Shown here in pieces: positions 2,497-6,182 of a stretch of DNA of 33,738 nucleotides (position 1 is its first letter; the number at the start of each line of letters is the position of its first letter). Under the pieces are notes generated by a model. That model was not told the DNA's origin. It searched no databases and saw only the letters and a list, made by a program, of their open reading frames with translations. This DNA is from Chloroflexota bacterium (GTDB taxonomy: Bacteria > Chloroflexota > Anaerolineae > J102), in the NCBI GenBank assembly GCA_013151415.1, contig JAADII010000050.1:1-33738 (forward strand), written 5' to 3'. The position numbers and the translations under genes are program-made.

Positions 2497-3699
2497 TCAT
2501 TCCTGCCAAAAATCGGGATCATAGGCCGGGAGCTCGCAGCGGATGGGTTTGTCCTGTCGCCAACCCAGAGCATAGCGAGCCTGCATCAGTTCATGGATTT
2601 GGGTCGTGCCCTCGTAGATGACCGCGCCTTTGGCGTTGCGCAGGTAGCGCTCCACCTCGTATTCCGAAGAAAAGCCATACGCGCCATGAATCTGCACCGC
2701 GTCGGACGCGGCTTGCCAGGCGGCCTCGGTCGCGAACCATTTCGCCTGCGAGGTCTCGCGCGTGTTGCGCACGCCCTGGTTTTTGAGCCAGGCCGAGCGC
2801 TGCCAGAGCATGGTGGCGATGTCGTAATTCAGGGCCATCTTGGCGATCATCTGCTGCACGAGCTGGTAGTTGGCGATGGGTTGGCCAAAGGTCTGGCGTT
2901 CATGCGCGTATTTGATGGACAGTTCCATGACCGCGCGAATGGTTCCGGCCGCGCCGGCCGCCACGGTCATGCGCGCGTTGTCCAATGCGCTCATGGCCAC
3001 TTTGAAGCCCTCGCCCTCTTCTCCGATGCGATTTTCTTTGGGAACCCGCACATCGTCCATGTTGATCCAACCCGTGTTGCTGGCCCAAACGCCCATTTTC
3101 TTCTCGATGGTTCCCGTGGTCAACCCCTTCATGCCCCGTTCGAGCATGAACGCGGTGATGCCGCGATGTTTCTTCTCGGGGTCGGTTTTGGCGAAGACCA
3201 ACATGTAGTCGGCCACATCGGCCAGGGTGATCCACATCTTCTCGCCGTTGAGAATGTAGTCATCGCCGTCGCGGCGGGCCGTGGACTTCAGCCCCGCGAC
3301 ATCCGATCCGGCCGCGGGCTCGGTGAGGCCATAACATCCCACCTTTTCGCCCGTGGCCAGGGGAACGAGGAAACGTTGCTTTTGCTCCTCGGTTCCCCAC
3401 TGAAAGACCGCCAAGGCATTCAGGGCCAGATGCACGGCAATGGTCTCGCGCACCGACGCGTCGGCCCATTCCAACGCCTCGGACACAATGCCCAGCGAGA
3501 TGTAGTCCATCCCGGCCCCGCCATATCGCACCGGAATGCAGATGCCCATGATGCCCAACTCGGCCATGCGCGGGAGCAATTCACGGGGATACTCATGTCG
3601 TTCATCATACTCCGGGATGATGGGGCGGACTTCCTTTTCCGCGAAGCTCCGCACCATATCCTGCACCATCTTGTGTTCGGTCGTCAGAGCAAAGTCCAT
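2497..3699 (-). CDS. Acyl-CoA dehydrogenase
   Basis: A 400-residue flavoprotein of the acyl-CoA dehydrogenase family, which introduces the alpha-beta double bond into an acyl-CoA and hands the electrons to ETF. The FAD/substrate signature [16 protein letters not shown] is at about 121-136, the second family signature [15 protein letters not shown] at about 333-347, and the catalytic base position is E363 in YEGTTQIHE, the place used by short-chain and branched-chain enzymes. Substrate chain length cannot be decided from this. A glutaryl-CoA dehydrogenase is less likely because the family-specific context is not obvious. The ATG at 3699 has an AAGGAAG ribosome-binding site. It is the first gene of the cluster ending with etfB and etfA, its electron acceptor. 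Confidence 0.95.
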
Positions 3700-3913: not shown

Positions 3914-4315
3914 CTATTCTTGCAGTGTGATGGTTTGCCCCGGCCCGTCCATGTCAAACCGAAGCTTGTTCAGTACATTCCGCCCTAATATGATATGTGT
4001 CCCCCAATCATCACCGACGATATCGATGTTTGGCAACCGAATTTCACCAAAAAGAATAAGATCGACTTTATAAACTCCGACTCGATGTAAATGTTCTCCC
4101 AGATGAGAACGGACATTTGTCATATAGAGAATCGGTATGTCCAATCTCTCGATTAATGAGGTTGGCGCAAAGGTCCCGTCCGCCCCAGTATCCACTAGCG
4201 CGAGCATAACAGCTGTTGTTCTAACAGCGCCCGGTCGCGCGATTTGGACAGGCAACACCGGGGCTGGCGGGTGATATTCATGGCTAAATGTCGTTGAATA
4301 ATTCTCGTCGTTCAT
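3914..4315 (-). CDS. Retropepsin-like aspartic protease (clan AA)
   Basis: A 133-residue protein with the single-lobe aspartic protease layout. ALVDTGADGTF at about 39-49 supplies the catalytic D42-T43-G44 triad, and THIILGRNVLNKLRF near 106-120 is the matching hydrophobic-hydrophobic-Gly motif of retropepsins (usually ILGRD; here Asn replaces Asp). Such proteins act as homodimers, one Asp from each chain. There is no signal peptide or membrane segment, so it should be cytoplasmic. The ATG at 4315 overlaps the stop of the upstream DUF5678-like gene by 4 nt, which implies translational coupling and a joint job. The substrate is unknown; the partner protein is the obvious candidate, but that is inference. 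Confidence 0.85.
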   Translation of the reverse strand: MNDENYSTTFSHEYHPPAPVLPVQIARPGAVRTTAVMLALVDTGADGTFAPTSLIERLDIPILYMTNVRSHLGEHLHRVGVYKVDLILFGEIRLPNIDIVGDDWGTHIILGRNVLNKLRFDMDGPGQTITLQE

Positions 4316-4677
4316 GAACTTTGCAGACGCGGACTAAAGATATGCAATTCTCGAGGCCCTTCAGCCGGTATGATCAAAACGGGACTGTCGCCATATTTTT
4401 TTCGTATACGCTCGAATAAAGCTATTTCGTTGCTATCATGATCAACAATGCGTTGATTATGCACAGCCACAAACTCGCCTTCGTATTTCGCTCGTTCACT
4501 CAGCGGTAAGGCAAGCCACCAGGCCTGTTCCCGTTCGATTTTCCGCCGCGCGGCCAGTGTTCGTTCGCGGCGGAGGGCCGCTTCCAAAAAGCTCTCGATA
4601 GAAACACCGCGATTTTGCGCCTCTTCTTCGATCACTCGCGCCAGTTCGTCTGATATTTTAAGCGCCGTTGTATTCAT
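4312..4677 (-). CDS. Ribbon-helix-helix-like/DUF5678-like protein, partner of the aspartic protease
   Basis: This 121-residue protein has two parts. Residues 1-38 (TTALKISDELARVIEEEAQ, then a helix ending in ALRRE) look like a ribbon-helix-helix DNA-binding segment, with a short strand and two helices. Residues about 54-116 (EFVAVHNQRIVDHDSN, then ALFERIRKKYGDSPVLIIPA) match what I remember of the DUF5678 family, small proteins often encoded beside retropepsin-like proteases. A basic linker (about 37-50) joins them. The start ATG at 4677 lies 26 nt downstream of a palindrome that overlaps a promoter, which fits self-repression by the N-terminal part. It resembles an antitoxin in organisation, but no toxin fold is recognised. 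Confidence 0.7.
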   Translation of the reverse strand: MNTTALKISDELARVIEEEAQNRGVSIESFLEAALRRERTLAARRKIEREQAWWLALPLSERAKYEGEFVAVHNQRIVDHDSNEIALFERIRKKYGDSPVLIIPAEGPRELHIFSPRLQSS

Positions 4678-4702
4678 TAACCAATACCTTTGTGCGAAGT
4701 TG

Positions 4703-4745
4703 GACTACACAATTTTATTGTAGTCGGTTCATCCCGATCGTGCAA
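4703..4745 (-). promoter_or_regulatory. Promoter with overlapping palindrome for the DUF5678-like/protease operon
   Basis: On the minus strand TTGCAC (4740-4745) and TACAAT (4717-4722) are separated by 17 nt, a good sigma-70 layout. The -10 box lies inside the perfect inverted repeat GACTACA (4703-4709) / TGTAGTC (4719-4725) with a 9-nt spacer. A protein bound to this palindrome would block the promoter. The first start codon downstream is 4677. Confidence 0.6.
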
Positions 4746-4838
4746 ACAGCATGCAGCAATGGGTGCGTTTCAACTAGGGAGAACGGTTGTGATCCGACAA
4801 TCCACCCGATTTCGGCGAGATGTGAAAGGATTGAAGCA

Positions 4839-6182
4839 TCAGTGAAAGGAATCGTCGGCGCCTTCAACGTGGACGGTGAATTCGGTTGGGGAGGTCGGGG
4901 GTGGAGCTTGAAGATCGGGCGACTGACGTTGTCGTCGTCGGCGAAGCTCGCGCAGATGGATCTCCACGCTGCGACCGTTATCGGGAAGTGAAAAACGCAT
5001 GGCATAGGCCCTGGTGAGCATCTCTTCGGCTTCGTCCAGAGCCTGCTCTTGCAGCAGCAAAGCGCCCAAATTGGCCAGGGCCAGCGCGTCATTGGGGTTC
5101 TCTTGCAAGCGTTTGCGCAGCTTTTTCTCCTGCCGCTGCTGGTGCTTGCTCCGCACCAAACGCACACCCATGTCGAAGACGATCTCGGTGATTGCGTTTT
5201 CCTCCCTCACCTCCGCGCGGTGACGGATCACCGCGCGCGTGCGAGGGACGATCATGTCCAGCGCCCGGATGACGCGGGCGTGGAGCGTGGCCTCGGTGAA
5301 TTCGAATTCGACGTGGATGGTGAGTTCGCCGCCGGGGTCCACAAGCACATCCAGATATTGTTCATCTTTGTCACTGCTTAGCGATTGCAAAAGCACCGGC
5401 GAGTGTCCGCCATTCTTAATGGAAATGGCATGCTCTTTGGCCGACACCTCCAACCCGGCCAGAGATTGGGTTTCCTGTTGAATGACCGGAATCGTCTCAG
5501 GTTGTGGGAATTGCACATCGAGTATCTCGTAAAAATTGCTCGTATACTCCTTGAGAATCCCCACATGCTCATGGATCACGCCATCTTCAACGGTTTCGAA
5601 CACGATCTTCACGCCGATGAGACGCTCCAGCAGCGGGTCTGTCTGCAATCCCGCCTGCCCGATCACCTCTTGCCCCAGTTTTTTGAGGTGCGTTTCTCCG
5701 CTGGCGTCGATGAGTTGTCCGGCCGGTTTGCGGGCGCGGCTAAGCGTCATGCCGAAAATTTCGTTCAGAGAGGCCGAGGCCGCGCTGATGAAATTGCGCG
5801 TTTTGCGCTTCAGTTTTTGGGTGGGGTTGGGGTGAAAGGCTTGCTGGATGGCCTTTTCCCGCTCTCGCTGTTTTTCGGGCAATAGGTCGTCGGCATAGCG
5901 AAAAATGGCCTCAATTTGCTCGAATTCGTTGCTATATAACAGGTAGCTGCTTTCCAGGTGATGGTCATCCTGCACAGCATTGCGATAGTGCAGCTCCAAC
6001 CCTGTGGGCAGCACGTCCATGACGCCCCAAATGCGGCGGCCATCCACCAGCGCCAGGGTCACATGGAAACCCTCGAACGAGACCAGACAGTCATCTCGAC
6101 GCCGCGCGCGCAGCCACGCGCCGAGCAAGGACGCGAGCAAGATGACTGCAATGGTGATGATAAAGGACCAATCAATGATCAT
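4839..6182 (-). CDS. Membrane-anchored TPR-containing protein of unknown function
   Basis: I do not recognise this 447-residue protein beyond its layout. Residues 5-23 (a run of Ile, Ala, Leu and Val) form one membrane segment, followed by the positive cluster RARRR, so the rest should be cytoplasmic. Residues 30-230 are a mixed globular region with a charged stretch (about 100-130). A second beta-rich region covers about 240-345. Residues about 363-395 (NPNDALALANLGALLLQEQ, then LDEAEEMLTRAYA) form one clear TPR unit, preceded by a basic Gln/Lys/Arg helix. The C-terminus is Pro-rich. The start ATG at 6182 has only a weak GGAT ribosome-binding site and lies 14 nt after the T-run of the bacterioferritin terminator. 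Confidence 0.75.
   Translation of the reverse strand: MIIDWSFIITIAVILLASLLGAWLRARRRDDCLVSFEGFHVTLALVDGRRIWGVMDVLPTGLELHYRNAVQDDHHLESSYLLYSNEFEQIEAIFRYADDLLPEKQREREKAIQQAFHPNPTQKLKRKTRNFISAASASLNEIFGMTLSRARKPAGQLIDASGETHLKKLGQEVIGQAGLQTDPLLERLIGVKIVFETVEDGVIHEHVGILKEYTSNFYEILDVQFPQPETIPVIQQETQSLAGLEVSAKEHAISIKNGGHSPVLLQSLSSDKDEQYLDVLVDPGGELTIHVEFEFTEATLHARVIRALDMIVPRTRAVIRHRAEVREENAITEIVFDMGVRLVRSKHQQRQEKKLRKRLQENPNDALALANLGALLLQEQALDEAEEMLTRAYAMRFSLPDNGRSVEIHLRELRRRRQRQSPDLQAPPPTSPTEFTVHVEGADDSFH

Follow-up and report, generated by a model that had tools for sequence, protein, structure and literature searches.

Two overlapping genes of an Anaerolineae bacterium (Chloroflexota) are best read as a module of toxin-antitoxin-like or repressor-protease type whose enzyme, a retropepsin-fold aspartic protease, is of a new class. 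The genes lie in the window, the whole stretch of 33,738 nucleotides analysed here (contig JAADII010000050.1), and the host is a draft genome of 4.5 Mb that is 97.7% complete. The first gene encodes P1, a ribbon-helix-helix (RHH) protein with a DUF5678 domain, and the second encodes P2, the protease (Table 1). Judging from the sequence data, we put the chance at about one in two that the pair works like a type II toxin-antitoxin module in which a retropepsin stands in for the toxin, the toxicity itself being presumed. More tentatively, the pair may belong to a class of type II toxin-antitoxin (or abortive-infection) systems that has not been described before, in which the putative toxin is a retrovirus-type protease and DUF5678 serves as a retropepsin-binding neutraliser carried on interchangeable antitoxin DNA-binding domains.

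Table 1. Features of the P1-P2 locus and its flanks, in positions of the window
Feature	Position	Strand	Basis or remark
Acyl-CoA dehydrogenase gene, flanking	2497-3699	minus	Pfam/ORF
P2 gene, retropepsin-fold aspartic protease	3914-4315 (3917-4315 without stop)	minus	ORF, 133 aa including stop; Pfam; AlphaFold2
P2 second signature ILGRNVLN (hydrophobic-hydrophobic-Gly, residues 109-116)	3968-3991	minus	69 relatives
P2 catalytic motif DTGAD (residues 42-46)	4178-4192	minus	D42, G44, and D46 invariant in 69 relatives
ATGA overlap, P1 stop / P2 start	4312-4315	minus	Sequence
P1 gene, RHH-DUF5678 protein	4312-4677 (4315-4677 without stop)	minus	ORF, 121 aa including stop; Pfam; AlphaFold2
P1 C-terminal tail (residues 105-121), candidate protease-binding segment	4315-4365 (FSPRL at 4324-4338)	minus	pLDDT 57-62 in last blocks
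DUF5678 domain of P1, modelled strand-strand-helix-strand	4372-4488	minus	Pfam; AlphaFold2 secondary structure
RHH domain of P1, putatively DNA-binding (about residues 1-45)	4543-4677	minus	PDB profile matches; Foldseek; VIA-align
Inverted repeat GACTACA-9-TGTAGTC, proposed operator	4703-4725 (arms 4703-4709/4719-4725)	minus	Chance-level, not conserved
Sigma-70-like promoter match	4717-4746	minus	Best 9/12, TTTGCA-18-TACAAT
TPR-like protein gene, flanking	4839-6182	minus	Weak TPR match

An earlier, sequence-only reading of the window had taken the second protein for a soluble aspartic protease whose DTGAD motif is intact, and the searches bore out the protease and its motif. P2 matched the Pfam families gag-asp_proteas (E 4e-7) and Asp_protease_2, both above the cut-off, and a profile search with P2 matched the HIV-1, HTLV-1, and Ddi1 proteases. 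The AlphaFold2 model of P2 (pLDDT 94.6) had its best Foldseek match in the Rickettsia protease APRc (5c9b/5c9f, TM about 0.65-0.69), and the structural matches to the APRc, HTLV-1, and HIV-1 proteases had E values of 1e-3 or lower. Both the D-[TS]-G and the hydrophobic-hydrophobic-Gly motifs of retropepsins were present together with the fold, and D42-T-G-A-D46 was intact. In the second signature, R112, L115, and N116 were invariant and G111 was nearly invariant among the 69 relatives, and the catalytic D[TS]G[AS] was retained in nearly all P2 copies spanning that site. The matches and the model together indicate that P2 is an intact retropepsin-fold aspartic protease of clan AA, with catalysis predicted. 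Matches to NCBIfam TIGR03698 (clan_AA_DTGF) were weak and below the cut-off, and PADLOC assigned no defence family to the pair, its sole weak match being to P2 (E 0.04). P2 shares the fold and the DTG/DSG and ILG signatures with the prokaryotic clan AA retropepsins (APRc; COG5550/COG3577; TIGR03698), but differs from them in being tied to a DUF5678 partner with a putative DNA-binding domain and in having no transmembrane or signal segment, as judged by eye.

The first protein had been credited with an N-terminus resembling a DNA-binding domain, and the PDB profile search and the AlphaFold2 model confirmed an RHH domain there. The match of P1 to Pfam RHH_1 was weak (E 0.0025, below the cut-off), and the RHH call was backed by matches to the CopG family, EndoAI, MazE6, and VapB26 in the profile search. 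The model of P1 (mean pLDDT 92) superposed on CopG, Arc, MazE-mt9, AtaR, and KacA, with a TM(target) of 0.87 and an rmsd of 1.0 over 39 columns for DNA-bound CopG (Foldseek) and an rmsd of 1.1 over 54 residues for MazE-mt9 (VIA-align, Z 5.6). The Z scores for MazE-mt9, AtaR, and KacA were about 5 for this small domain, and the fold search with the whole model tested chiefly the RHH part. The C-terminal half of P1 belongs to Pfam PF18929 (DUF5678), a family without assigned function, which it matched above the cut-off (E 8e-8, 32.4 bits against a gathering score of 23.2). Behind this domain lies a tail with low model confidence, which is likened to the C-terminal tails of antitoxins that fold on binding. 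The motif [ST]P[RKHSQ] was present in 56 of 100 tails of P1 paired with P2, SPR occurred within the last 24 residues in 40 of 100 P1 proteins, and RSPRL-like ends were frequent. A depletion of the SPR tail in P1 without P2 (17 of 40, against the 56 of 100 in paired P1) was considered and set aside as too weak to use.

The two genes had been reported to overlap by 4 nt, as the two minus-strand reading frames indeed do. A survey of other genomes for the pair, which the sequence-only reading had suggested as a check, showed that the pair is strongly conserved. When the P1 and P2 profiles were run against 249 genomes of the class, each matched about 30% (31%) of them, and among the best 150 matches listed for each profile there were 102 P1-P2 pairs in 51 genomes. 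As in type II toxin-antitoxin operons, which consist of small, co-directional, usually overlapping genes, the antitoxin commonly leading, all 102 pairs had P1 first and P2 second on the same strand, and the overlap was exactly 4 nt in 50 of the 74 scorable relatives. A second scan, anchored only on P2 on named genome contigs, gave 80 loci with P1 directly upstream in 77; in the remaining three, P2 started within 45 nt of the contig end. The relatives recovered in this way carry Anaerolineae/Chloroflexota labels. In close pairs, dN/dS was about 0.05-0.2 for both P1 and P2, which points to purifying selection. An ordinary operon of two small genes that stand together without functional interaction is a very improbable explanation: 4-nt overlaps are frequent among bacterial genes, as it would have it, but the pairing is retained at 20-60% protein identity and across orders, survives the exchange of N-terminal domains, and is accompanied by fusions. 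The distribution of the pair was patchy and fast-diverging, with up to several copies per genome. Collections of plasmids, phages, and viral contigs, in which Chloroflexota may be poorly represented, yielded no match. In two draft genomes (L260 and L268), N runs were seen inside the P2 gene or immediately after it, and these assembly gaps may mark strain variation.

In close relatives, the acyl-CoA dehydrogenase gene that flanks the pair was present without the pair next to it, and the TPR gene was on separate contigs, so that a comparison of empty sites gave no clean point of insertion. The TPR-like protein itself, of 447 residues with a hydrophobic N-terminal stretch, has counterparts of 46-58% identity in many of the family's genomes, but it was not beside P1-P2 in the loci examined.

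The two genes were not lost alike. Among 120 intact P2 genes with enough upstream sequence, 110 had a DUF5678 partner, nine had a short partner of antitoxin type, one was fused to DUF5678, and none stood alone; the enzyme gene was thus always with a partner (120 of 120 including the fusion), as in type II toxin-antitoxin systems. In the other direction, at least 13 of 40 P1 genes without a full P2 (taken from 48 listed) were followed by remnants of P2 exactly where P2 would be expected; often these comprised the first 15-40 codons, and at times the two ends were left and the middle was gone. A harmful enzyme would produce this pattern, in which the enzyme is lost and its partner retained, with the caveat that a deletion of P1 would take the promoter with it and so silence P2. 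In three loci (L261, L273, and L293), P2 was cut down to both ends, its middle missing, beside an intact P1. The orphan P1 genes were still under purifying selection, so that P1 may do more than neutralise P2. One orphan P1 (L292) was followed by a small protein resembling DUF4160 by eye, possibly a switch of partner.

The partner of P2 varied in its DNA-binding half. When the P2 genes without an RHH-type P1 were inspected one by one, a small upstream protein or a fusion was found in all of them, contig ends aside. Most partners were RHH-DUF5678 proteins, and many of the others joined a Phd/YefM-like N-terminus to DUF5678 (in one case with a Pfam E of 2e-8, in another with a weaker match). In one partner, RelB took the place of RHH in front of DUF5678 (Pfam E 3e-11, NCBIfam E 7e-15). 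A few DUF5678 partners had other N-termini, one weakly DUF2281-like. The nine short partners were without DUF5678; one was Phd-like, and the other eight formed a single family whose AF2212-like match was weak (E 0.019), a class that rests on this Pfam match since a profile search with the short proteins found no antitoxin structure. The tail SPRLAxPxQAxDF was common to the Phd-like and the AF2212-like short partners, so the tail has moved from one DNA-binding fold to another. The DNA-binding domains predicted here, RHH in the window and Phd/YefM and RelB in homologous loci, belong to antitoxin classes, one enzyme family is combined with several antitoxin folds as in type II systems, and antitoxins typically swap their DNA-binding halves in this way.

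DUF5678 was also found with retropepsins in the absence of a DNA-binding domain. One locus (L256:1031-1672) held a natural DUF5678-retropepsin fusion, a frame of 214 residues without a DNA-binding domain, and in other Chloroflexota classes, DUF5678-only short proteins were found directly upstream of divergent retropepsins (L002, L009, L011, L016, L022, and L026). These pairs and the fusion suggest that DUF5678 and the retropepsin form the core pair. DUF5678, rather than RHH, is probably the domain that partners the protease, by predicted binding, and the DNA-binding domains are probably added regulators, which moves the weight that the sequence-only reading had placed on a repressor over to DUF5678. 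A coupling test of P2 against the RHH half and against the DUF5678 half gave a difference that includes zero, and the halves were not distinguishable by it. In a family of the same class (f2), frames of about 550-590 residues had a DUF5678-like match above the cut-off (L006, L007, L008, L012, L014, L015, and L018), and no retropepsin was found beside them.

The same DUF5678-only pairs and the natural fusion would also be expected if DUF5678 acted on retropepsins in ordinary proteolysis rather than in addiction, whether as a chaperone, as an inhibitor, or as an adaptor for substrates, with a housekeeping substrate for P2 and a DNA-binding domain that only sets expression. Physiological roles are known for some bacterial retropepsins, namely the Pseudomonas Rlo proteases (PMC12239564) and Rickettsia APRc (PMC4140852). 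This explanation is nevertheless improbable, since the patchy, multi-copy, fast-diverging distribution fits a toxin-antitoxin-like module better than housekeeping, as do the loss of P2 with P1 kept and the use of antitoxin-type domains.

The regulation of the pair was less clear than its composition. The sequence-only reading had proposed a perfect palindrome as the operator; the repeat was present at the proposed place, but it was at chance level and was not conserved in homologous operons. An inverted repeat of equal strength occurred in about 7.1% of dinucleotide-shuffled 100-nt upstream regions and in 14.5% of 83 homologous operons. No repeat recurred in these 83 regions, and a search for recurrent inverted 5-mers over 144 upstream regions found nothing conserved, so the expectation of shared palindromes upstream of homologous operons failed. 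The three strongest inverted repeats lay 77-100 nt upstream and, by position only, may terminate the preceding genes. An RHH operator can also consist of short direct repeats, and the inverted-repeat test would miss such sites. The promoter proposed earlier, TTGCAC-17-TACAAT, did not hold up either; the best match in its place was within the shuffle expectation (0.8 ± 0.8) and therefore no better than chance. From an impression of the upstream sequences, several homologous P1 genes closely follow another gene, with no obvious promoter.

These results bear on a switch like ImmR/ImmA or DdrO/IrrE, in which P2, activated by a signal, would cleave the autorepressor P1 and derepress the operon, making P2 an antirepressor rather than a toxin; P1 would perhaps repress other operons besides its own. 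Such a switch shares with P1-P2 a DNA-binding protein, a site-specific protease, and the gene order, and the purifying selection on orphan P1 genes is what would be expected of an independent regulator. Exchange among RHH, Phd, and RelB types, however, would wreck any regulon beyond the operon's own operator. Since a regulon would not survive such an exchange, the regulated site is likely to be local. The DUF5678-retropepsin pairs and the fusion without a DNA-binding domain, together with the failure to find a conserved operator in homologous upstream regions, also speak against the switch, which we regard as unlikely, if the least so among the alternatives. It is compatible with the toxin-antitoxin reading, as P2 could cut P1 plus other proteins. 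A described precedent is the pair of a COG2856 (ImmA/IrrE) Zn-protease with an Xre protein, a candidate toxin-antitoxin system (PMC2701414, Makarova 2009). ImmA is required for the proteolytic inactivation of ImmR. There, too, a protease is paired or fused with a DNA-binding protein and a toxin-antitoxin or repressor-protease switch was proposed (PMC2701414; PMC10538038), but the protease is a Zn-protease with HEXXH and the partner an Xre HTH protein. P2, a clan AA protease of unrelated fold, has an aspartic active site in place of HEXXH, and its partners are of RHH, Phd, or RelB type. The text of PMC2701414 contains no mention of aspartic or aspartyl proteases.

The toxin-antitoxin-like or regulated-proteolysis arrangement suggested by the sequence-only reading is supported by the conservation of the pair, the fixed gene order, the common 4-nt overlap, the exchange of N-termini, the lack of any lone intact P2, and the conserved active site. 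In the toxin-antitoxin reading, P1 would bind P2 through DUF5678 and the C-terminal tail and keep the dimeric protease inactive, and the RHH domain of P1 would repress the operon from a nearby operator. Autorepression appears not to be essential, because DUF5678/retropepsin pairs exist without a DNA-binding domain. A fall in the level of P1, by degradation or by cleavage of the tail by P2, would release the protease, which may then cut cellular proteins and bring about growth arrest or a response to stress or phage. The accessory distribution of the pair, the purifying selection on both genes, and the low model confidence of the P1 tail also fit the toxin-antitoxin reading. The points against it are the palindrome that is not conserved, the lack of plasmid, phage, or viral copies, and the selection that persists on orphan P1. 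Type II systems with RHH antitoxins (MazEF, ParDE, AtaRT, KacAT, and VapBC26) share with P1-P2 a small operon of two overlapping genes that opens with the DNA-binding partner, an RHH domain like those of MazE-mt9, AtaR, and KacA, the exchange of antitoxin folds, and an enzyme always found with its partner. P1-P2 differs from them in that the enzyme, a putative toxin, is a retropepsin and that DUF5678 stands between the DNA-binding domain and the tail.

A retropepsin-fold aspartic protease was found in no described toxin-antitoxin family, and no paper joining retropepsins with toxin-antitoxin systems was found in the open-access literature, outside of which a description is possible. By its title or abstract, the only open-access paper found to name DUF5678 is not about this domain. 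The earlier statement that the function of the pairing had not been established agrees with the finding of no open-access paper or database entry that describes it. To our knowledge, prokaryotic retropepsins are numerous and few have a known role. A conserved DUF5678 partner in a toxin-antitoxin-like layout would give a retropepsin a testable function and DUF5678 a role. That DUF5678 stays with the protease while the DNA-binding half is swapped gives a simple prediction of which part binds the enzyme. If the toxin-antitoxin reading is true, P2 would be the first of the retropepsins to be assigned to an addiction or stress module, and this class of enzymes would have a new job.
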